DNA of 64,000 bases, taken from contig NZ_AP029018.1 of NCBI RefSeq assembly GCF_037076525.1, positions 124,001 through 188,000 of the forward strand. Reading direction: 5' to 3'. Each line of letters begins with the position of its first letter. Within the stretch, counting starts at the first letter, position 1. The stretch is from Selenomonas sp. TAMA-11512. Lineage in GTDB: Bacteria; Bacillota; Negativicutes; Selenomonadales; Selenomonadaceae. The position numbers were made by a program, and so were the translations under genes. Under the pieces are notes generated by a model. The model worked only from the letters and a program-made list of their open reading frames with translations, did not search any database and was not told the DNA's origin. This document shows positions 1,484 to 23,646 of the stretch, one piece after another.

Positions 1484-2233
1484 TCATCCCGTGAGCTGCG
1501 CGTCTAAAAGCCGTCTCGTTGCGGGATGCTTTGCGCGGGTCAATTCCGAAGGCGCGAGCTCCTCGACGATGCAGCCCTCCGACATGACGAGGATGCGATC
1601 GACAACCGACTGCACGGCGGCGAGGTCGTGACTTACGAAAATTCCCGCCGATGGGCGTTTCTTCCGCAATTCTCGGATGAGCTCCAGGATCTGCGCCTGC
1701 GTGATCACATCGAGCGCGCTGGTCGGCTCGTCATAGAGAATCAGCTTCGGCGCGGACAAAAAGGCGCGGGCAAGCACGACGCGCTGCAGCTGTCCCCCGC
1801 TGAGCATATGGGGACGGGCGCTGAGAAGATCCGCGTCCAGCCCGACGGAGGCAAACAGCTCCTCCAAATGTCTGTCCTCCTGCCGCAAGCCTAAGCTGCG
1901 CAGCGGCTCACACAGAAATTCCCCGATCGTCATGCGCGGGGAGAACATCTCCGACGGCTCCTGTACCACAAGCTGTACGTATCGGTATAGCTCCGGCGAT
2001 GTCGGGGAGAGGGGGATTCCCTCGCCCACGGAAAGGGAGACCGTCCCCGTGTCAGGCTCGATAAGCCCTGCGACGACGGAGAGCAGCGTGGATTTCCCAC
2101 AGCCGCTCAGCCCGACGATACCGAGCATCTCCCCCTCCGAAACACTGAAGGAAACGTCCTTCAGCACGGGAATGCGGCGTCCCTCGCTTTCAAACGATTT
2201 TCCTGCATGCTCCACCGTCAAAATGCGGCGCAT
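1484..2233 (-). CDS. ABC transporter ATP-binding protein, OppF/DppF/NikE type
   Basis: Second ATPase of a peptide/nickel-type importer, 249 residues. Walker A GLSGCGKST lies at about residues 41-49, the signature LSGGQLQR near 144-151 and Walker B LILYDEP near 164-170. I place the start at 2233, directly behind GGAGGAAG; an upstream ATG at 2287 overlaps the stop of the preceding gene as ATGA but has a poor ribosome binding site. It is the last gene of the five-gene importer operon read from the cobalamin riboswitch. The short C-terminus lacks the oligopeptide-specific extension seen in OppF, fitting a NikE-like protein, but the substrate cannot be read from an ATPase. Confidence 0.88.
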   Translation of the reverse strand: MRRILTVEHAGKSFESEGRRIPVLKDVSFSVSEGEMLGIVGLSGCGKSTLLSVVAGLIEPDTGTVSLSVGEGIPLSPTSPELYRYVQLVVQEPSEMFSPRMTIGEFLCEPLRSLGLRQEDRHLEELFASVGLDADLLSARPHMLSGGQLQRVVLARAFLSAPKLILYDEPTSALDVITQAQILELIRELRKKRPSAGIFVSHDLAAVQSVVDRILVMSEGCIVEELAPSELTRAKHPATRRLLDAQLTG

Positions 2234-2283
2234 CGTATCTTCCTCCTCCACAAAGTGTGTGCCGGAGCTTCCCGGCTGCATAC

Positions 2284-3054
2284 TCATCGGACCTGCAGGG
2301 CGGCATCGAGCAGCGCCTGGGTGTAGGGATGCTGCGGATGCTTGAGGATGTCCCTGCTCCTGCCCGCCTCGACCGTGCGTCCCTTTTGCAGGACGAGAAA
2401 TTGATCCGCGAGATAGGATGCCGCGTGTATGTGATGCGTGACAAGGAGAATCGAGGCCCCGCGCGCAAGCTCTCCCCGCATCGTGTCCAGAAGCTCCCGT
2501 ACGGCAACGACATCGAGTGCGGCAGTCGGCTCGTCCAGCAGGATGAGGCGCGGGGCAAAGGAGAGCAGCATGGCGAGCGCCACCCGCTGCCGCTGTCCTC
2601 CGCTGAGGCGAAAGACATACGAGGAAAGAATCCGCTCCGGATCTTCAAAGCCCGCCTTCCGCAGCGCCTCCGCCGCGAAATCGTGCGTGTCGCGTGCGCG
2701 CATGCCGTGCGCCGTGAGGAAATCCCGAAACTGCTTTTCGATCGTACGAATCGGATTCAAGAATCGCCCCGGCTGCTGAAACATGATGGCGATGTCGTGT
2801 CCCGCGAGGGCGCGCCGCTCTTCCCGCCGCATGGAGAGAAGAGAAGTGCCCTCGTAAAGAAGATCGCCCCCCGCGACGCTTTCATCGCTCGGCAAATCGC
2901 CCAGAATCGTGCGCAGCAGCGTGCTCTTGCCCGATCCGCTTTCACCGACGACGGCAAGGGCCTCTCCCGCGGGCAGAGCGAGGCTTATGCCCTTTAGAAT
3001 TTCGCGACTGCCGCAGAGCACATGTAGATCCTTTGCTTCAAATCGAAGGCTCAT
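2284..3054 (-). CDS. ABC transporter ATP-binding protein, OppD/DppD/NikD type
   Basis: First ATPase of the importer, 256 residues. Walker A GESGSGKST is near residue 37, the signature LSGGQRQRVALA near 155, and Walker B LILLDEPTAALD follows. It forms a heterodimer with the protein encoded just downstream and powers the two permeases upstream in the operon. Its start overlaps the end of the preceding permease gene by 17 bases, so the genes are probably translationally coupled. At 256 residues it matches NikD (about 254) better than OppD/DppD (about 330), which carry a C-terminal peptide-transporter extension and iron-sulfur motif absent here. Confidence 0.88.
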   Translation of the reverse strand: MSLRFEAKDLHVLCGSREILKGISLALPAGEALAVVGESGSGKSTLLRTILGDLPSDESVAGGDLLYEGTSLLSMRREERRALAGHDIAIMFQQPGRFLNPIRTIEKQFRDFLTAHGMRARDTHDFAAEALRKAGFEDPERILSSYVFRLSGGQRQRVALAMLLSFAPRLILLDEPTAALDVVAVRELLDTMRGELARGASILLVTHHIHAASYLADQFLVLQKGRTVEAGRSRDILKHPQHPYTQALLDAALQVR

Positions 3055-3904
3055 GCACGTCCTCCTTTTCCGTCAGTTCCGCTCGATACGGATCGAAGAA
3101 ATCGCGCAGGGCATCGCCGAGCAGGTTGAAAATCAAAACGGTGATGAAGATGGCCAGCCCCGGAAAGATGAGGAGATGCGGCGCCGTCTGCATGTATTCG
3201 CGCGCGCCCATGAGCAGCGTTCCCCATTCCGGGCTCGGAGGCGGGATGCCGATGCCGATGAGCGACAGACCCGCGACAAGCAAAATTACCTCGCTGATGT
3301 GCTGGCAGAGAAAGAGCAGCAGCTGCGGCAGGGCATTCGGCAGAATGTAGAGAAACAGCACGCGAAAAAATCCGGCCCCGGCAAACGGCGCATAGCGCAC
3401 ATATCCCTTTTCCCGCTCCGTGCGGACGAGCGTGCGGGCGATGCGGGCGTACTCCGGCCACGTCGTAAGCGCGAGGGCAAGGATAACGCTGCCGACGGAT
3501 TGGCCCAATACACCCAGGAGTGCAATCATAAAAATGCGGTTCGGAAAGGCGAGGAAGAAATCGAGCACCGCCGTCCCGGCAAGCTCGGCGCGTCCGCCCA
3601 AAAGCGCGATCGCCGATCCGATGAAGATGCCGAACAGCGCGGTAATCCCGACGCCTAGGAATGCGATGGAAAGCGTCACCCGCGCCCCGTAGAGAATGCG
3701 GGAAAACTCATCCCTGCCCAGGGAATCCGTCCCCATCCAGTGCGCCGCGCTTACGCCCTGCAGGCGTCGGCCCATCTCCACCGCGTCCGGATCGTAGGGC
3801 GCGAGCCATGGGGCAAAGAGCGCCAGCGAGAGCCAAAGCAGGGCGAGAACACAGCAAACGAGCACGACCTTATCCGCGGCAAGCCGCCGCAAGAACATCG
3901 TCAT
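3038..3904 (-). CDS. ABC transporter permease, DppC/NikC type
   Basis: Inner-membrane permease of 288 residues with an N-terminal membrane segment (about residues 12-33), the DPDAVEMGRRL / GTDSLGRDEFSR segment typical of DppC/NikC proteins, then the binding-protein-dependent transport domain with about five further helices. The start at 3904 overlaps the preceding stop as ATGA; a longer version from 3967 is possible but has no better ribosome binding site. It pairs with the DppB/NikB-type permease encoded immediately upstream. Confidence 0.88.
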   Translation of the reverse strand: MTMFLRRLAADKVVLVCCVLALLWLSLALFAPWLAPYDPDAVEMGRRLQGVSAAHWMGTDSLGRDEFSRILYGARVTLSIAFLGVGITALFGIFIGSAIALLGGRAELAGTAVLDFFLAFPNRIFMIALLGVLGQSVGSVILALALTTWPEYARIARTLVRTEREKGYVRYAPFAGAGFFRVLFLYILPNALPQLLLFLCQHISEVILLVAGLSLIGIGIPPPSPEWGTLLMGAREYMQTAPHLLIFPGLAIFITVLIFNLLGDALRDFFDPYRAELTEKEDVHEPSI

Positions 3905-4842
3905 AGGGAATCGCCCGCCTTTCCGTGCTGCCTGGGATCGAGCAGATAGCAGAGGATGTCCGCGCAAAGATTCGCGAGAATGAACATGCTCGCCCCCCAG
4001 AGCACATACCCCTGCATGAGGTGATAATCATGCTGCGTCACGGCCTCCACCATCAGGGCGCCCATCCCCCGCCAGCCGAAAATGGATTCGATGACAACAG
4101 ACCCGCCTAAAAGGCCGCCGACCGTCAGTCCCATCATGGAGATCAGGCCGGGCAGGGCATTCGGCATGAGGTAGCAGAACAGGATCTTCCATTTGCCGAG
4201 CCCCAGCGCACGCGCCCCGGCGATGTAGTCCTTCTGATATTCCTCCAACAGCGCCGTTCGCAGGCGGCGGATATAGAGCCCCGATATCCAAACGGAAAGC
4301 GCCGCCGTCGGCAGGATGAGCCCCTGCGCACCGGTCGCAATGACGGGCAGGTACGAGAGCTTCACGGCAAAGATGAAAATCAGCAGCAGGGAAAGCCAAA
4401 AGGTCGGAATCGCAATTGCGCCAAACGTGAGAAAGCGTATGAGCGCGTCCACCCAGCGGCTGCGGTAAAAAAAAGCAAGCAGTCCGAGCGGGAGCGTGAT
4501 GAGGATCGACACGACAAGGGCGGATGCCGACAGCTGTACCGTGAGCGGAATCGCCTGCGCGAGCAGGGTCGAGACCGGCGTGTGAAAGATGATCGAATAT
4601 CCGAGATCGCCCTGCAGCACGCCCTTCAGCCAAATCCAATATTGTACGGGCACGGGTTCATCCAACGCGTATTTGTGCCGCAGCTCCGCCACCACCTCGG
4701 GCGAGGGGGAAAGCCCCAGCTGCTCCATGTGGAGCGTGACGGGATCAATCGGGGAAAGATGCAGGATCCAAAAGCTGAGGACAGTGGCGATGAAGAGATT
4801 CAGAACCAAGGAAAAAAGTCGGCGCATGACACCGCTTTTCAT
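3901..4842 (-). CDS. ABC transporter permease, DppB/NikB type
   Basis: Permease of 313 residues with the DppB/NikB pattern: N-terminal transmembrane helix (about 9-29), an external DP-V-LH segment, then five helices. The EYQKDYIAGARALGLGKWKI segment is the cytoplasmic coupling loop (EAA-like motif) that contacts the ATPases. The start at 4842 has AAGGAGG. A stem-loop separates it from the binding-protein gene upstream, as is usual where the binding protein is made in excess. Confidence 0.88.
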   Translation of the reverse strand: MKSGVMRRLFSLVLNLFIATVLSFWILHLSPIDPVTLHMEQLGLSPSPEVVAELRHKYALDEPVPVQYWIWLKGVLQGDLGYSIIFHTPVSTLLAQAIPLTVQLSASALVVSILITLPLGLLAFFYRSRWVDALIRFLTFGAIAIPTFWLSLLLIFIFAVKLSYLPVIATGAQGLILPTAALSVWISGLYIRRLRTALLEEYQKDYIAGARALGLGKWKILFCYLMPNALPGLISMMGLTVGGLLGGSVVIESIFGWRGMGALMVEAVTQHDYHLMQGYVLWGASMFILANLCADILCYLLDPRQHGKAGDSL

Positions 4843-4861
4843 AAAAACCTCCTTGCTTACA

Positions 4862-4909
4862 GTGCAGAAGAAAAGCCCGACCGTTCGCAGCCGAGCTTTT
4901 CTCTGTGCA
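4862..4909 (-). terminator. intercistronic stem-loop between binding-protein and permease genes
   Basis: AAAAGC and GCTTTT, extended by imperfect pairing of the flanking GTGCAGA/TCTGTGCA segments, form a long hairpin between 4937 and 4842, with TTTTC following on the minus strand. It probably acts as a partial terminator or 3'-end stabiliser of the binding-protein message. Confidence 0.5.
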
Positions 4910-4936
4910 TTGTTTTGCGAAGTGAATACGTCCGCT

Positions 4937-6451
4937 TTACTCGACGGTAATATCCTTCGTAATCACATAGTAGTCGATGGGGAATACCGGCACGTTTTTC
5001 ACATTCGACTTCGCGACGATCGTGTTCGCGGGGAAGGCGAGGAAGAGACGGGAATCGTCGGCTACGACGAGCTCGGAGATCGCTTCGATCTGCTCATCGC
5101 GGAGCTTCGGATCGAACGTCATCTGCAGCTGCGCGATTTTCGCGTCGACCTCCGGATTCGAATAGTGCGAGCGGTTTGAGGCCCCTTCCGTGCGGAATAC
5201 CTTGCTTACGAAATTATACGGGTCGTTTGTCGGCACCGTGACCCAGTTCTCCTCGACAAGGTCAAAGTCGCCCGTTTCACGCGCTGTCGCGGCATTCTTC
5301 ACCTTCACGATCTCGACGTTGACGCCTGCCGCTTTCAGCTGTGCCTGAATCGCTTCATACATCGCAGTCTTCGTGCCCCAGACAGCCATTTTCAGCACCA
5401 GCGGACGGCCGTCCTTTTCGTAGATACCGTCCGCATTTTTCGTCGTGTAGCCTGCGGCCGCAAAGAACTTCTGCGCCGCTGCCGTATCCAGCACGCGCTT
5501 TGATTTTACATGACCGTAGGGAACCGTCGGCGGGAAAATCTCCCCTGCCGGGGCCGCTCCGTTGCCCTCAATCTGTGCAAGCGCCTCATAGTCCGTGGAG
5601 GCTGCCAGCGCATGGCGAAGGTTTGCGTCCATCAGAATGCGGTCGAAATTTGCCGACAGCATGAAGACGCGCGTGCCGATCGTCTGGTAAATCTTGAACG
5701 AATCGTTTTCAAACAGGCTGCGGCTCGCCGCGTCCACGCGCTGTATCATGTCCAGCTCGCCCGACTGCAGCGCCATGGCACGCTTCGTGTTGTCCTCGAT
5801 ATTCTTCACCGTCAGAGTGTCCAGACCTGCCTTGCCGCCCCAGTAATTTTCATTGCGCTTCAGCTCGATCGACTCGCCCTTCACAAAGCCCGTCACCTGA
5901 TACGGACCGGTGAGAATCGGCGTCGTCTCGACATTCGAGAGATCCTTCGTATCCACGATGATGAATTCCGGTGCGCTCATTACCGCGACAAGGGAGGCAT
6001 TCGGCTGGTTTGTCTCGATCACGAGATCCTGCCCTTCCACGCGGATCTCTTTGATATCCGCCGCCGCCCTTGAGCCCTCAAGCTGCTTTATCGTGCGCTC
6101 GATGGAGGCCTTCACCAGTTCCGGCGTCATATCGTCGCCGTTGTGGAACTTCACGCCCTTGCGAATTTGGAACTTCCACGTCGTCGGATTGACGTTCTCC
6201 CACTTCTCCGCGAGCTGCGGGGCAAATTCCATCTTCTCCGTCACCGTCACGAGATTTTCTCCCGCACCCGTCCGAATGACCATCCAGCCGTCTTCTCCGC
6301 GGCCCGGATCCATCGTCTCGCCGAACCAGTACACGCCGACGGTCAAATGCTTCGCCTTGGAATCCGACGCCTGCTTTTCCGTACCGCCGCACCCTGCCAG
6401 CATCAAAGCCGCCATCATCACCGCGAGTAGGGCAAACACTGCCTTACGCAT
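4937..6451 (-). CDS. ABC transporter substrate-binding lipoprotein, family 5 (NikA/DppA-like)
   Basis: Extracytoplasmic binding protein of 504 residues. The start at 6451 has GGAAGGA and gives a lipoprotein signal peptide ending in LAGC, with lipid attachment to the Cys near residue 21. The mature part is a family 5 binding protein (for example VNPTTWKFQIRKGVKFHNG and LTGPYQVTGF). It is first in an operon with two permeases and two ATPases and is preceded by a cobalamin riboswitch and terminator, so its expression should fall when cobalamin is plentiful. This family includes peptide and nickel binders; riboswitch control points to cobalt/nickel or a corrinoid-related ligand. That ligand is inference. 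Confidence 0.87.
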   Translation of the reverse strand: MRKAVFALLAVMMAALMLAGCGGTEKQASDSKAKHLTVGVYWFGETMDPGRGEDGWMVIRTGAGENLVTVTEKMEFAPQLAEKWENVNPTTWKFQIRKGVKFHNGDDMTPELVKASIERTIKQLEGSRAAADIKEIRVEGQDLVIETNQPNASLVAVMSAPEFIIVDTKDLSNVETTPILTGPYQVTGFVKGESIELKRNENYWGGKAGLDTLTVKNIEDNTKRAMALQSGELDMIQRVDAASRSLFENDSFKIYQTIGTRVFMLSANFDRILMDANLRHALAASTDYEALAQIEGNGAAPAGEIFPPTVPYGHVKSKRVLDTAAAQKFFAAAGYTTKNADGIYEKDGRPLVLKMAVWGTKTAMYEAIQAQLKAAGVNVEIVKVKNAATARETGDFDLVEENWVTVPTNDPYNFVSKVFRTEGASNRSHYSNPEVDAKIAQLQMTFDPKLRDEQIEAISELVVADDSRLFLAFPANTIVAKSNVKNVPVFPIDYYVITKDITVE

Positions 6452-6827
6452 CCATATCCTTCCTTTCCCGACTGTTAATCCATATAAAACAACATAAAAA
6501 GTACGGTCAAACACCACCTCCCGGTATGCATCGCATCGGCCAATCGCTCAAAGCATCGTCCCGTTTACCGTACGGGCACCGCATAGCAAGCACGGAAGCA
6601 TGCTTCGCAAATCATCATCGCCGCTGAGGAAAAGAAAAATCTCCCTACCGTAAAGGTAAGGAGATTTGCACGCAAAGCTATGTGCATGACGCTTCATATC
6701 ATGCATGTCATGCACAGCGCTTACACGAAAATATCCAATACATCTCGTAAATCCACTTGATTTCTTGAACGTTCACAAGTAAGTCGCCCAATAATCCCCT
6801 TCCCATCGCTCGCAGGTCAGACGGTGA
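6452..6827 (-). other. leader between riboswitch and ABC operon
   Basis: This 376-base stretch has no convincing gene. It contains the terminator at 6636-6669 and an unassigned segment near 6545-6610. I see no second aptamer. Confidence 0.5.
6636..6669 (-). terminator. intrinsic terminator downstream of the cobalamin riboswitch
   Basis: On the minus strand, CAAATCTCC...GGAGATTT forms a stem with an inner ACC/GGT extension, followed immediately by TTCTTTTCC. It lies between the riboswitch (6828-6990) and the binding-protein start (6451), so it is the likely regulated expression platform. Confidence 0.75.
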
Positions 6828-6990
6828 TTGTCAGACAGGCAGTTCTCCTGGCTCGGTTCCTCACTTTGCTGCGCCTTCCCGGAGGTTTCTCCAGTGACAT
6901 TCCTGCAGCATCGCTCCCCTTACAGTGGAGTGACCGCTCCGGCTTTGACCGGATTCTCTTTTCAGCTCGGCTGAGCACCTGTCCCGATTT
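6828..6990 (-). promoter_or_regulatory. cobalamin riboswitch
   Basis: Read on the minus strand, the segment holds the class hallmarks in order: ACAGGTGCTC near the 5' end, GAGAATCCGGTCAAAGCCGG, the CACTGTAA block, TCACTGG, GGGAAGGCG and the B12 box AGCCAGGAGAACTGCC at 6838-6853. This matches the Rfam-type cobalamin element very closely. About 160 bases downstream comes an intrinsic terminator, then the five-gene ABC importer, so adenosylcobalamin or a related cobamide should switch the importer off. Confidence 0.93.
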
Positions 6991-7135
6991 CTATGATGTT
7001 GTCAAATCTGAGGATTCCTCAGACCAAAATTTATGCTACTCCAAAAGGTGTGTCTTGTCAATTGCTTTTTCCGCAGAAGGATTCCTTTTGTCATGCGCAT
7101 TGAAGGTCTTGACCGCTTCCGTCAAGACCGAGCGC

Positions 7136-7759
7136 CTATCGTTCTTTGTAGACGAAGCTGTCGCTGCGCGGGTCGTAGCGCAGATCATAGGCTTTCATGA
7201 CGGCGCCGATCTCGGAGAACAGTCCCTTGCCGAAGCACAGGCGCATGACGGGCTCGCCGTTCAGCTCGGAGCGGACGAGGATCGTCTGGAAATCATCGGG
7301 CGACGGATTGTAGAAGTCGGCGCTGTCGAGGTAGACGCGGTATTGACCGGTCACGGGCGACTTGCCGACGATGAGGGCGTACCCTTTGATGTGCCGGTTC
7401 GGCATCCACGCAAGCTCCGTGTTGGAGTGATAGCAGAAGAAGGTCTGCCCGCCGCTCGTAAAGGCCATGATCTCTCCATAGGAGGATTTCGTCACCGGAG
7501 TGCTGTGCTCAAAGAGCAGCTCTTTGCCGTTCCAGAGGGAAAAGTTTTCCAGCGTGCCGAGCTGTATGAGCGTCGCCTTGATTTCATTCTCTCCGACGCG
7601 AAAGTAAGCGCGGCGTATGTTTTTTTCACGGTCCGTGTGCACGGGCGTCAGCAGCGGCGCGGGCAGAGGAGGCAGCGCGGATGCGGCGAATGCGGGAAGC
7701 GGCGCCGCGAGAAAGAGTGCCAGCAAAAGCGCGGCGAGGTATGTGCGATATGCGGTCAT
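7136..7759 (-). CDS. hypothetical exported protein
   Basis: Unrecognised protein of 207 residues. The start at 7759 has GGAG and yields a clear signal peptide: basic MTAYR, a hydrophobic AALLLALFLAA core and a cleavage site after AFA near residue 25. The mature part is mixed alpha/beta with no motif that I know; the segment VYLDSADFYNPSPDDFQTI suggests a small ligand-binding or surface fold. It is transcribed alone, with TATAAT on the minus strand at 7803-7808. A GGTCTTGAC/GTCAAGACC hairpin at 7105-7129 just after the stop may end the transcript. Confidence 0.7.
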   Translation of the reverse strand: MTAYRTYLAALLLALFLAAPLPAFAASALPPLPAPLLTPVHTDREKNIRRAYFRVGENEIKATLIQLGTLENFSLWNGKELLFEHSTPVTKSSYGEIMAFTSGGQTFFCYHSNTELAWMPNRHIKGYALIVGKSPVTGQYRVYLDSADFYNPSPDDFQTILVRSELNGEPVMRLCFGKGLFSEIGAVMKAYDLRYDPRSDSFVYKER

Positions 7760-7885
7760 GTACAAGGCTCCTTTGCTTTCATGAGGGTGTTCGTACGGAT
7801 TCATTATAGCACAGCGAGGCGAGATGAAAAAGAAAAGAAGCCGCCGCCGGAGGCAGCAGCTTCGTCCGTATCGTGAAGGCAAGGG

Positions 7886-7918
7886 AAGCGCTGCATCCGG
7901 CAAGGGGATGCAGCGCGT
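7886..7918. terminator. strong GC-rich hairpin after the AICAR formyltransferase gene
   Basis: GCGCTGCATCC and GGATGCAGCGC form a perfect 11-bp stem with a 7-base loop. On the minus strand it lies 30 bases past the stop at 7948. The downstream T content is modest, so it may be a stabiliser as much as a terminator. Confidence 0.55.
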
Positions 7919-7947: not shown

Positions 7948-9117
7948 TCAGTGGTGGAAGAGGCGGATGTGGGTCATCGCCATCGTGATGCCGTACTTGT
8001 TCGCTGTCTCGATGACGTGGTCGTCGCGGATGGAGCCGCCGGACTGCGCGATGTAGGAGACGCCGGACTTCCTTGCGCGTTCGACGTTGTCACCGAAGGG
8101 GAAGAACGCGTCTGAGGCGCAGGAGACGCCTTTGATATCGGCGAGATACGCCTTTTTCTCTTCATGGGTAAAGGGTGCGGGTTTCTCTGTGAAGATACGC
8201 TTCCAGTCGTCTGTCTCGAGGAGGTCTTCCGCCTCCTCGCCCAGGTAGACGTCGATGGCGTTGTCGCGATCCGGGCGGCGCACGTCATCGCGGAACGGCA
8301 GGCCGAGCACGCGCGGGCTCTGGCGGAGCTGCCAGATATCCGCCTTGCTGCCGGCGAGGCGCGTGCAGTGGACACGAGACTGCTGTCCCGCGCCGATGCC
8401 GATCGCCTGACCGTCCTGCGCGTAGCAGACGGAGTTCGACTGGGTATACTTCAGGGTGATGAGCGCGATGAGGAGGTCGCGCTTCGCGCCCTCGGGGAGG
8501 TCTTTCGACGTCGTGACGATGTCGGAGAGACAGGATGAATCAATCTTCAGGTTGTTGCGCTCCTGTTCGAAGTGAATGCCGAAGACGGTTTTTTCCTCGA
8601 GGACGGGCGGCGCATAGGAGGGATCCATTTGCAGGACGAGGTAGGCGCCCTTGCGTTTGCTCTTCAGGATGTCGAGCGCCTCGGCAGAATAAGAGGGCGC
8701 GATGATGCCGTCGGAGACTTCACGGGCGAGGAAGGACGCGGTCTGCGCGTCGCACGCGTCGGAGAGGGCAACAAAGTCGCCGTAGGAGGACATGCGGTCG
8801 GCGCCGCGCGCGCGAACGTAAGCGGTCGCCACGGGACTGAGAGCGATGCCCTCGACAAAGTAGGCTTTCTCGAGCGTCTCGGAGAGGGGCACGGCGACAG
8901 CGGCGCCCGCCGGGCTGACGTGCTTGAAGGATGCGGCGGCAGGGAGTCCCGTCGCCTCTTTCAGCTCCGTGACGAGCTGCCAGGCGTTCAAGGCGTCGAG
9001 GAGGTTGATGTAACCGGGCTTTCCGTTCAGGACGGTGAAGGGCAGCGCACCGTCGGTGAAGACGCGCGCCGAGGATTGGTTGGGGTTGCAGCCGTATTTC
9101 AGGGCGATTTCGTTCAT
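7948..9117 (-). CDS. stand-alone phosphoribosylaminoimidazolecarboxamide (AICAR) formyltransferase
   Basis: Catalyses formylation of AICAR to FAICAR with 10-formyltetrahydrofolate, the penultimate step of IMP synthesis. The 389-residue protein covers only the AICAR transformylase half of PurH: YGCNPNQSSARV at the N-terminus, SFKHVSPAGAAVAVP with the catalytic Lys-His pair near residues 67-68, QSNSVCYAQDGQAIGIGAGQ centrally and the closing MTHIRLFHH. The IMP cyclohydrolase domain is absent, so that step must be encoded elsewhere. The start at 9117 is the first residue that aligns with the family, although the ribosome binding site is weak (GAAAGGAACG). The 5' leader contains a repeat element that may be a MITE. 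Confidence 0.9.
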   Translation of the reverse strand: MNEIALKYGCNPNQSSARVFTDGALPFTVLNGKPGYINLLDALNAWQLVTELKEATGLPAAASFKHVSPAGAAVAVPLSETLEKAYFVEGIALSPVATAYVRARGADRMSSYGDFVALSDACDAQTASFLAREVSDGIIAPSYSAEALDILKSKRKGAYLVLQMDPSYAPPVLEEKTVFGIHFEQERNNLKIDSSCLSDIVTTSKDLPEGAKRDLLIALITLKYTQSNSVCYAQDGQAIGIGAGQQSRVHCTRLAGSKADIWQLRQSPRVLGLPFRDDVRRPDRDNAIDVYLGEEAEDLLETDDWKRIFTEKPAPFTHEEKKAYLADIKGVSCASDAFFPFGDNVERARKSGVSYIAQSGGSIRDDHVIETANKYGITMAMTHIRLFHH

Positions 9118-9136
9118 ATCTTCGTTCCTTTCGTTG

Positions 9137-9411
9137 CTAAGGAAACACGGATAAATGCAGCACAGCCATCTTGGCGTATCTTTTCCGCCCTCTCTGCGTC
9201 GGCAAATCCTCCACAGAGCACCACTCTGCGTTCGGTTTACCATGAAACCCCAAGAGGTCAAACCGAAGGAGCAGACCGATTGGTTAGGTTTCTGTAAGGG
9301 CGGAGCGCACAATGTCCGCAAAGCGGACGTTTGTACGTATAGCTTGCCTCCTTGACAGAACGAAAAATCTACACCAATCTGACAAACTTCATTTTATCAG
9401 CGTTTCCCTAA
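9137..9411. mobile_element. MITE-like element with ~19-bp terminal inverted repeats
   Basis: The left end CTAAGGAAACACGGATAAA is an imperfect inverted repeat of the right end TTTATCAGCGTTTCCCTAAG, 275 bases apart. No transposase is encoded. The interior carries one copy of the repeat also present at 39.4 and 41.2 kb. No clear target duplication is visible. It sits between a likely promoter (9470-9498) and the AICAR formyltransferase start. Confidence 0.5.
9237..9343 (-). repeat. dispersed repeat, copy A
   Basis: Reverse complement of a ~107-base sequence also found at 41161-41272 and, more degraded, at 39409-39512. All contain ACAAACGTCC-CTTTG, AATCGGTCTGC-CCTTCGG and a closing TGGTAAA. GTCCGCTTTGCGGAC forms a small hairpin. 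Confidence 0.8.
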
Positions 9412-14460: not shown

Positions 14461-14553
14461 TTATATCCTCCTTGGCGGATGGTTCTTTCCTTCTATATAC
14501 ATGTCAGGACTTGCTCCGCGATGCCGGGGCTTGTCATAGGCGCCGCCGAACAT
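14461..14553 (-). CDS. possible 30-codon leader ORF upstream of gltX
   Basis: An ATG at 14553 behind TAGGAT opens 30 codons ending in TAA one base before the gltX ATG; its last codons contain the gltX ribosome binding site. The encoded peptide begins MFGGAYDKPRHRG and is not Glu-rich. It could couple translation to gltX or be chance. Confidence 0.2.
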   Translation of the reverse strand: MFGGAYDKPRHRGASPDMYIEGKNHPPRRI

Positions 14554-14568
14554 CGTAATATCCTAGCA

Positions 14569-14597
14569 AGTATACAATAAATGGAGTGACAAATCAA
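14569..14597 (-). promoter_or_regulatory. promoter of gltX
   Basis: Minus-strand TTGATT, 17-base spacer, TATACT, giving a leader of about 105 bases before the gltX start. Confidence 0.6.
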
Positions 14598-14646
14598 ATC
14601 TCACTTTTGCTGCGGGGAAAAACATGTGCGGAGATGATCAGGCTGA

Positions 14647-14665
14647 ATTTATCAGTGCTTTCTAA
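14647..14665 (+). repeat. solitary copy of the MITE-end motif
   Basis: ATTTATCAGTGCTTTCTAA matches the end motif TTTATCAGCGTTTCCCTAA at 9393-9411 and TTTATCAGTGCTTCCTAA at 41287-41304. No partner end is seen nearby. Confidence 0.4.
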
Positions 14666-14765
14666 CAGGAAATAGAGGATGAATGGAGAAATAAGTATAT
14701 ACTGAACAATTTTGCGAAAACATACGGTATGCACGCTGCTCTTGATTGGTTAGGGGGGCATTAAA

Positions 14766-15620
14766 ATGGCAGAGCAAATCGATCTCTCGAGAGATCCGCG
14801 CATCCACTTGCTGACGCGCAAGATAGGCGCAATTTTCTTTCACTACCATGTCCGGGAAGATGTCATGGATTTTTCCATTGTGCGGGAGGGGTCAAAGCCG
14901 CGCCGCATAGAGGAGTTTCGACGCCGTCTGAACGGGGATCTTCGAGGTATGGTGCATCCCGATTTTCTGGAGGGTCTGTCGGCATATTTCCTCGGGCAGA
15001 CGATGGGGAGGGAGCGCTTCCTTCTCGATATGGGAAAAACGCCGACGGGCAAGTATTCGTGGTACACGTTCGTCATTGAGCGGGAGACCGATGCGGGCGG
15101 CCATGTCACGGGCGTTCAGGGGGTCTGTTGGAACACGGAGAATATCTCCGGAAAGCAGGAGCGCAAGGGGAGCTTCCGATCGGAAAGGGACGCGGTTACG
15201 GGCACGGCGAACGAAGCCGGTCTCATGCGCATCCTGGACAGCCATCTGTCGGGGCCCGGGAAGAATGATCAGAATGCGGTCATCCTCATCCGGATAAACA
15301 ACTTCAAGCAGTGTGAGCGTTCTGCCGGACGTCGGGTGTCGGACGCTCTGCTCATCGATCTGTCGAAATACATCGGTGAGTATTTCCTCCCGGGAGATCG
15401 CCTGGCGCATCTGGGCAGCGCGTGCTTTGCGGTCTTCGTGCGGGGCGTGGAGAATCGTGAACACATCACGGCGATGGCGGACAACCTAGCCTTCAAGCTG
15501 TCTTCCCCGAGCGACCGCTTCGGCAGGTATCGGCTGGAGATATCGACGTCGGTTGCATGGTTCCCGGATGACAGCAGACGCGGCGGCGAGCTGCTGACGA
15601 TTGCCAAGGGCAGGCTGTAA
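14766..15620 (+). CDS. GGDEF-derived signalling protein lacking the catalytic motif
   Basis: A 284-residue protein. The N-terminal half (about 1-140) looks like a PAS-type sensor (GKYSWYTFVIERETDAGGHVTGVQGVCWN). The second half follows the diguanylate cyclase fold: DAVTGTANEAGL for the usual D-LTGL-NR-L, then VILIRINNFKQ for the first strand with the metal-binding Asp replaced, RRVSDALLIDLSKYI, and LAHLGSACFAVF where active enzymes have R-GGDEF. The GGDEF signature is therefore gone, and the protein is probably a non-catalytic sensor or c-di-GMP/partner-binding module. It is divergent from gltX and read alone. Confidence 0.65.
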   Translation: MAEQIDLSRDPRIHLLTRKIGAIFFHYHVREDVMDFSIVREGSKPRRIEEFRRRLNGDLRGMVHPDFLEGLSAYFLGQTMGRERFLLDMGKTPTGKYSWYTFVIERETDAGGHVTGVQGVCWNTENISGKQERKGSFRSERDAVTGTANEAGLMRILDSHLSGPGKNDQNAVILIRINNFKQCERSAGRRVSDALLIDLSKYIGEYFLPGDRLAHLGSACFAVFVRGVENREHITAMADNLAFKLSSPSDRFGRYRLEISTSVAWFPDDSRRGGELLTIAKGRL

Positions 15621-15627
15621 AAAAAAC

Positions 15628-15656
15628 TTGCAGACTCTCGTGTCACATGCTATAAT
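15628..15656 (+). promoter_or_regulatory. promoter of rpmE
   Basis: TTGCAG, exactly 17 bases, TATAAT. It starts a leader of about 105 bases before the L31 start; the leader contains the stem AAGCTGCCGC-AGA-GGCGGCTT. Confidence 0.75.
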
Positions 15657-15768
15657 ACCTTGAAAGCGCGGCTGGGCTTTTCCCCGGAGGGGACAGGTCT
15701 GACCAAGCTGCCGCAGAGGCGGCTTGTATAATTTCCTTACCCGAATCGGGAGAAGCGAGGTGTAGTAT

Positions 15769-15969
15769 ATGAGAGAAGGTATCCATCCGGAATTCTTCGA
15801 GGCGAAGGTCTCGTGCGGATGCGGCAATACGTTTATGACGGGCTCGACAAAGAAGGAGCTCAAGGTGGACGTGTGCTCGAAGTGCCATCCGTTCTTCACG
15901 GGGCGCCAGAGAGATGTTGCCGCGGGCGGCCGTATTGAGAAGTTCAATAAGCGTTACGCAAAGAAGTAG
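15769..15969 (+). CDS. rpmE: 50S ribosomal protein L31
   Basis: A 66-residue L31 of the zinc-ribbon (C+) type, with Cys at residues 16, 18, 36 and 39 (SCGCGN and [11 protein letters not shown]). Family length and the closing KFNKRYAKK are normal. It is transcribed alone from a strong promoter with a 105-base leader that could carry autogenous control, and is followed by a terminator. Confidence 0.97.
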
Positions 15970-15979
15970 TTTCGTGTTT

Positions 15980-16024
15980 AAGGGGCTGGCGTGCACGTGG
16001 TTTCGTGCCGCCGGTCCCTTTTGA
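15980..16024 (+). terminator. intrinsic terminator of rpmE
   Basis: AAGGGGC and GTCCCTT with inner GGCG/CGCC and CACG/CGTG pairs, followed by TTTTGATTT. Confidence 0.7.
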
Positions 16025-16099
16025 TTTAAGTCATCTCCGCGTGTATCGGCGATTCCCGGCGGAGCGCGGATACGCTGTAATATATATGAGTGGTGAAAT

Positions 16100-17080
16100 A
16101 TGAAGGAAAACAGTATCAGTATCGGCGGGCAGGCCGTCATCGAAGGGGTGATGATGCGCGGCCCCGTGAAGGTCGCGACCGCCGTCCGCACGCCGTCGGG
16201 CGAAATCGAAGTCGAGACGAAGGACATCGTCTCGTTCCTGGACCGATACCCCCTATTCAAGAAGCCGTTTCTGCGGGGCACGATCGCTCTCGTCGAATCC
16301 CTCGTCTACGGCATCAAATCGCTTTCCTACTCCGCGCAGATGGCGGGGGAGGACGATGAGAAGATCACGGATCGGGAGCTTGTCGGCACGATTCTGCTCG
16401 CCTTTCTGCTCGCGGCCGTTCTCTTTATCGCCATCCCGACAGGGGCGGCGAAGCTCTTTGATATCCTGACGGATGATCCCGTGTTTCTGAACCTCATGGA
16501 AGGCGTCCTGCGGCTCGTCATCTTTCTGCTCTACATCTGGGGAATCGGGCGTGCCAAGGATATTCAGCGCGTGTTTCAGTATCACGGCGCCGAGCACAAG
16601 ACGATACACTGCTTCGAAGCCGGCGAGGTGCTGACCGTCGAAAACGTCCAGCGTCATCCCCGTCTCCATCCGCGCTGCGGCACGAGCTTTCTCCTCATCG
16701 TCATGCTCGTCTCCATCTTCGTCTTTGCCTTTCTCGGCTGGCCGAGCCTCATCGAACGAATCGCGAGCAGGGTCCTTCTCCTGCCGGTCGTGGCGGGCAT
16801 TTCCTATGAGTTCATCCGCCTGGCGGGGCGATCCGAGAATTTCTTTGTCAAGGCGTTTTCCTGGCCCGGACTCCAGCTGCAGTGCATCACGACGAGTCCG
16901 CCGGATGACGATATGGTCGAGGTGGCTATTGAGTCCGTCAAGGCGGCGCTGCCGAGGGAGCTGATTCTCGCCGGTACGCCTGACTACATAGCGAAGAGCC
17001 GTCTGTCAAAAGAGACAGTGTCGGATGCCGAAAATGCGGATTCGCCCGCACTGCAGCAGGAGGCGCATCATGCTGGATAA
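16100..17080 (+). CDS. DUF1385 family membrane protein (YqhQ-like)
   Basis: A 326-residue protein of the DUF1385 family, recognised from [14 protein letters not shown] at the N-terminus, [15 protein letters not shown] and [18 protein letters not shown] in the middle. Hydrophobic helices lie at about residues 95-115, 130-150, 200-220 and 228-250. The biochemical role is not known, although the conserved His/Cys set suggests metal binding. It begins an operon: its stop overlaps prfA by 11 bases. This DUF1385-prfA-prmC order is widespread in Bacillota. Confidence 0.92.
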
Positions 17081-23605: not shown

Positions 23606-23646
23606 TCGGAGCTTTGGCAATGTGCTGATAGGGATGGAGGATGTGC

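Follow-up and report, generated by a model that had tools for sequence, protein, structure and literature searches.

Cobalt transporters are a standard component of cobalamin regulons (PMC3766115), and operons of the NikABCDE class lying behind B12 riboswitches in Clostridium tetani and Desulfitobacterium hafniense have been predicted to encode cobalt importers (PMC2667541). CbtJKL of Sinorhizobium meliloti is described as an ATP-binding cassette (ABC) cobalt importer under an adenosylcobalamin (AdoCbl) riboswitch, and no Nik-class cobalt importer appears in the transporter table of that source, as far as it was read (PMC7689651). A further locus of this kind is described here from a 64,000-nucleotide stretch of Selenomonas sp. 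TAMA-11512 (the window; positions 124001-188000 of a single 2,593,422-base contig, the genome being read as stretches around matches), where a cobalamin aptamer and an intrinsic terminator precede five genes for a Nik/Opp5A-class importer. The favoured reading, which is considered likely, is that this operon imports cobalt, in the form of Co2+ or of a small chelate, and is repressed by AdoCbl.

Like the C. tetani and D. hafniense systems, the window operon combines a NikABCDE-class gene set with a preceding B12 riboswitch, and cobalt is deduced from the regulation; unlike them, it resides in a member of the Selenomonadaceae whose genome also encodes a paralogous importer under B12 control and, in a separate operon, a true NikA. 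With CbtJKL it shares the proposed role of an ABC cobalt importer and the cobalamin-riboswitch control. The energy-coupling factor cobalt importer CbiMNQO has the same proposed role, but it belongs to an unrelated protein family and CbiM is absent from the genome. The Staphylococcus aureus nickel system, NikA/Opp5A with Opp2BCDF-type permeases and ATPases, provides the best or near-best family and fold match for the binding protein and the two permeases (A, B and C), although S. aureus NikA (SaNikA) is a nickel binder to which A is 27% identical and A lies under every family cut-off. To our knowledge, no B12 riboswitch governs the S. aureus system. Escherichia coli NikABCDE resembles the window operon in its five genes, their ABCDE order and the short ATPases, and differs in being NikR-regulated and in having a NikA that falls in another clade and possesses chelate contacts missing from A. 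An earlier note on this DNA had leant towards cobalt or nickel, and this leaning is borne out, but its suggestion of a new metal or corrinoid importer overstated the novelty, since NikABCDE behind a B12 riboswitch had already been predicted to import cobalt (PMC2667541).

The features of the leader and operon are the following.

7033-7061, minus strand: candidate sigma-70-type promoter TTGACA-17-TAGCAT, about 36 nt upstream of the aptamer, 10/12 match
6821-6997, minus strand: cobalamin riboswitch aptamer (RF00174), full-model covariance match, near-identical to the aptamer preceding the operon of the closest relative (G043)
6792-6805, minus strand: candidate antiterminator strand UGGGAAGGGGAUUA, within the post-aptamer block, able to pair with the terminator 5' arm
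6637-6667, minus strand: intrinsic terminator AAATCTCCTTACC-TTTAC-GGTAGGGAGATTT, then TTCTTTTCC; 13-pair stem with a T-rich tail
4937-6451, minus strand: nikA-like substrate-binding lipoprotein (A), 504 aa; SBP_bac_5 244 bits, best NCBIfam match Opp5A_nikA 319 bits
3901-4842, minus strand: nikB-like permease (B), 313 aa; best NCBIfam match Opp2B (nickel) 310 bits, cut-off 350
3038-3904, minus strand: nikC-like permease (C); nickel_nikC 261 bits, Opp2C 258 bits
2284-3054, minus strand: nikD-like ATPase (D), 256 aa; best match nickel_nikD, 184 bits
1484-2287, minus strand: nikE-like ATPase (E), 267 aa, last gene of the operon; best match nickel_nikE, 203 bits

The aptamer was recovered by an Rfam covariance-model scan at 6997-6821 with 94.5 bits (E 3.1e-22; gathering score 31.5), over model positions 1-189, as one of two Rfam matches in the whole window, and on the strength of this model it is a predicted corrinoid-responsive element. 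Its B12 box, AGCCAGGAGAACTGCC, differs by 1 base from the textbook form AGCCAGGAGACCTGCC, and the same A occurs in the B12 box of the cbiK-leader riboswitch of this genome. The terminator hairpin, folded alone, reaches -23 kcal/mol (z -6.2; 0/200 shuffles as stable), and in the G043 leader, where the aptamer is near-identical and the linker has diverged, the terminator pairing is intact, with 13/13 pairs retained through 4 changes on both sides and 1 on one side. A pattern scan for terminators was not significant by itself (4 found versus 2.0 expected), so that the case for the terminator rests on folding and covariation. Both the aptamer and the terminator had been proposed in the earlier note and bear up under these analyses; the interval given there, 1484-6990, clipped the aptamer by 7 bases at its upstream end. 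The candidate promoter is fittingly positioned, but 1.1 matches of such quality are expected by chance in the region.

The post-aptamer block, CGAGCGATGGGAAGGGGATT or variants of it, recurs in each of the five cobalamin leaders found in the genome and probably represents the P13/L13 element; it includes the strand 6805-6792, whose putative pairing with the terminator reaches -14.6 kcal/mol in the window leader, no better than chance alone (52/500 shuffles as good), and -20.0 kcal/mol in the G043 leader, where only 3/500 shuffles are as good. From this architecture and the usual behaviour of such switches, expression would be turned off by the ligand. When AdoCbl or a related corrinoid is scarce, 6805-6792 would pair with the 5' arm of the terminator, allowing readthrough by RNA polymerase and synthesis of A to E; lipoprotein A would then bind cobalt, either as Co2+ or in a small chelate able to pass porins, for instance with histidine, and B/C with D/E would transport it into the cytoplasm to supply corrin synthesis. 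With corrinoid in abundance, the aptamer would hold the post-aptamer block, the terminator at 6667-6637 would form and transcription would stop, placing a cobalt importer under feedback from the product that the imported cobalt feeds.

Downstream of the terminator, five complete minus-strand genes run from 6451 to 1484 in the order A B C D E. The start of A is taken as ATG 6451, which gives a lipobox (LAGC), rather than the GTG 6517 of the mechanical open reading frame, and that of C as ATG 3904, in an ATGA overlap with B; an alternative start of E at 2233 would yield 249 aa. Pfam and NCBIfam place all five proteins, comprising an SBP_bac_5 protein, two BPD_transp_1 permeases and two ABC ATPases, in the Nik/Opp class, in agreement with the complete nickel/peptide-class importer previously read from the sequence; the best or near-best matches are all of the Nik/Opp nickel type, and none exceeds its curated cut-off. 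A falls below both the NikA equivalog cut-off (TIGR02294; 155 versus 393) and the Opp5A cut-off (NF045468; 319 versus 600). The ATPases were likewise correctly described as short: at 256 and 267 aa they are close in length to NikD (254 aa) and NikE (268 aa) of E. coli, whereas DppD (327 aa) and DppF (334 aa) are longer. A GntR gene at 632-1354 was considered as an operon member and rejected, as it is absent after E in the closest relative.

An almost complete set of genes for anaerobic cobalamin synthesis, from CbiD to CobD, clusters at 1582-1596 kb of the host genome, with some genes tested by hidden Markov models and the remainder read from order and sequence, and cobalt is therefore needed. 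A B12 riboswitch before a Nik-class operon in a B12-synthesising organism, as found here, is the situation on which the prediction of B12-regulated cobalt NikABCDE systems is based, and the absence of CbiM alongside the B12 pathway points to cobalt as the cargo. Five cobalamin riboswitches are present genome-wide, preceding the window operon, a methyltransferase and BtuFCD-like operon, a second Nik-type importer, an exported cbiK (with cbiL further on) and the methylmalonyl-CoA mutase genes mutAB. The second importer (L009:5757-11078; genome positions about 1033756-1039077, plus strand) has the gene order B C A D E and its own riboswitch, and its binding protein is 38% identical to A. The CbiK cobaltochelatase (L007:12094-13092, minus strand; leader in L002), with a cobalamin riboswitch upstream, has an apparent signal peptide (AEA-AY); no other chelatase was seen in the stretches read, and unless one exists cobalt insertion would take place outside the membrane. 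At the mutase locus (L008), a riboswitch at 5633-5411 (minus strand) and a terminator at 5299-5279 precede the B12-dependent mutase gene at 5113-2921, a paradoxical arrangement for an off switch; the pairing of riboswitch and mutase is already known from Veillonella parvula mutA (PMC9600662).

Nickel, or nickel and cobalt without preference, carried by a general importer that had captured a B12 switch, is the first alternative to be weighed. The nearest relatives with structures bind nickel, the NCBIfam names of the matches are nickel names, clade I orthologues without a riboswitch exist (see below), and the genome encodes a [NiFe]-hydrogenase with hyp genes, in an operon with a CobW/HypB-family protein, Ni_hydr_CYTB and a large subunit recognised by its RICGVC and DPCMAC motifs. 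This hydrogenase is, however, probably supplied through another operon at 553-564 kb (L112), whose binding protein exceeds the NikA cut-off of TIGR02294 (547 versus 393), clusters with E. coli and Brucella NikA with support of 100/100 and keeps 5/6 of the E. coli NikA contacts (R97, W100, R137, W398, Y402); no cobalamin riboswitch lies near it according to the genome riboswitch list. The existence of this bona fide NikA operon elsewhere in the genome is the strongest argument against the window operon being a nickel importer and makes nickel unlikely as its main cargo, and cobalamin repression would be of little sense for hydrogenase supply. The ligand, which had been held not to be nameable from sequence, is narrowed towards cobalt, at the strength given above, by this separate NikA operon together with the B12 pathway without CbiM.

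In a tree of binding proteins, A belongs to a clade of ten Selenomonadaceae rows (clade I; 100/99), joined at 93/93 to clade II (100/100), which corresponds to the second B12-controlled importer; SaNikA and BhNikA are outside both clades, and E. coli NikA, DppA and OppA are more distant. A thus lies outside the characterised peptide binders, with SaNikA and BhNikA nearest, and neither finding that the earlier note would have counted against its reading, no match to the cobalamin model or a firm place among such binders, is seen. The AlphaFold model of A (pLDDT 87.7, pTM 0.85) finds as its best fold match SaNikA 4xkr, bound to a Ni-histidine-thiazolidine chelate (E 2e-48; TM 0.84/0.90, 0.90 on target), to which A, as to BhNikA, is also near in sequence; the modelled fold supports a small metal-chelate binder and does not discriminate between metals. 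The E. coli NikA residues were set aside as a ligand test, SaNikA likewise being without all six.

In 9/9 genomes with full riboswitch lists, a cobalamin riboswitch lies on the same strand as the clade II importer, 1.9-2.2 kb upstream of its A gene, which counts in favour of the cobalt reading. In clade I, the riboswitch directly precedes the operon in G000, G043 and G060, while in G051 a PepSY_TM gene stands between the two and in G029 a symporter gene is interposed as well. The nearest relative, G043, is a Mitsuokella metagenome-assembled genome (MAG) whose A is 77-78% identical to that of the window. The clade I protein of the window genome is 77% identical to that of G043 and 52-55% to those of genus g9, whereas its clade II protein is 93% identical to that of a g9 genome and 73% to that of G043, and these opposite patterns suggest a possible transfer of the window operon, leader included, between lineages. 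Across 121 genomes of the family, CbiC is found in 118, so nearly all make corrinoids; clade II occurs in 52 and CbiM above the cut-off in 40, and 11 genomes have both where 17 would be expected (Fisher p 0.019, in a test that ignores kinship and the CbiM/NikM ambiguity), a deficit that lends weak support to the cobalt reading.

Several observations weigh against cobalt import under cobalamin control. No cobalamin riboswitch was found near the clade I operons of G090, G008, G036, G106, G101 and G089, that is, 6/11, so cobalamin control is not fixed in clade I; a riboswitch search of six relatives from named genomes with G089 and G090 found one only in the Mitsuokella MAG L016 (G060). For cobalt import, a second Nik-type importer under B12 control would be superfluous. 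The search of this genome for other cobalt importers covered CbiM, not the NiCoT, HupE and CbtA types. Two relatives with clade I also carry a CbiM/NikM-type protein, the CbiM-type gene of G043 and G060 having no cobalamin riboswitch on its contig, and CbiM absence is muddied as a general marker because PF01891 also covers the nickel protein NikM. A keeps 0/6 of the E. coli NikA contacts, R97, W100, R137, W398, Y402 and H416 being replaced by G, A, A, V, T and a gap; the loss of these contacts does not discriminate, because SaNikA lacks them too. Finally, downstream of the G060 operon lie genes for a PepSY_TM protein, a TonB receptor and a BtuF-like protein, neighbours that suggest a chelate or a larger ligand there.

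These G060 neighbours also speak for a cobamide, corrinoid precursor or cobalt-tetrapyrrole as cargo, as do the control of corrinoid uptake by cobalamin riboswitches, the exported CbiK within the same regulon and the ability of Nik-class binding proteins to bind haem, noted for NikA (PMC2667541). In the window genome, however, no TonB plug domain was found, which disfavours a large ligand such as cobamide, corrinoids could be taken up through the separate BtuFCD-like operon behind its own riboswitch, and the closest fold of A is that of a small metal-chelate binder; a corrinoid cargo is accordingly judged improbable. It is very doubtful that labour is divided, with clade II importing cobalt ions or small chelates and clade I of the window a larger cobalt carrier, for example a cobaltophore or cobalt-sirohydrochlorin that CbiK, exported and itself under B12 control, would form outside the membrane. 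An ordinary peptide importer with an incidental riboswitch, which would share the SBP_bac_5 superfamily and for which dipeptide binders occur lower in the list of fold matches, is most improbable given the short ATPases, the Nik/Opp2/Opp5A best matches of all five subunits, the position of A away from E. coli DppA and OppA, and the cobalamin riboswitch itself.

PepSY_TM proteins adjoin clade I importers behind cobalamin riboswitches at L126 (G060) 3960-7672 and L123 (G051) 14534-16231, both on the minus strand; together with the TonB receptor and BtuF-like protein of G060, they might act as reductase and receptor for a cobalt chelate. Two COG0523/CobW-type GTPases (PF02492 with CobW_C), possible metal chaperones, are encoded in the window at about 23640-24610 (plus strand; L168:1489-2457), after an alcohol-dehydrogenase-like gene, and at L167:1024-2145 (minus strand). 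Directly upstream of the riboswitch, a 255-aa open reading frame at 7136-7903 (minus strand) has no Pfam or NCBIfam match, and the gene at 7948-9321 (minus strand) has an AICARFT/IMPCHase domain (PF01808) as its sole match.

In summary, the 'nickel' name given by annotation models is probably wrong for the genes of the window operon. Specific to this case are the coexistence of a true NikA operon with two paralogues under B12 control and the uneven occurrence of the riboswitch among clade I operons. In the literature found, Nik-class cobalt importers rest on prediction (PMC2667541). This chromosome, which lacks CbiM and holds both a true NikA operon and two Nik-type operons under B12 control, offers a clean test case for a direct comparison of metal specificity among members of one family.

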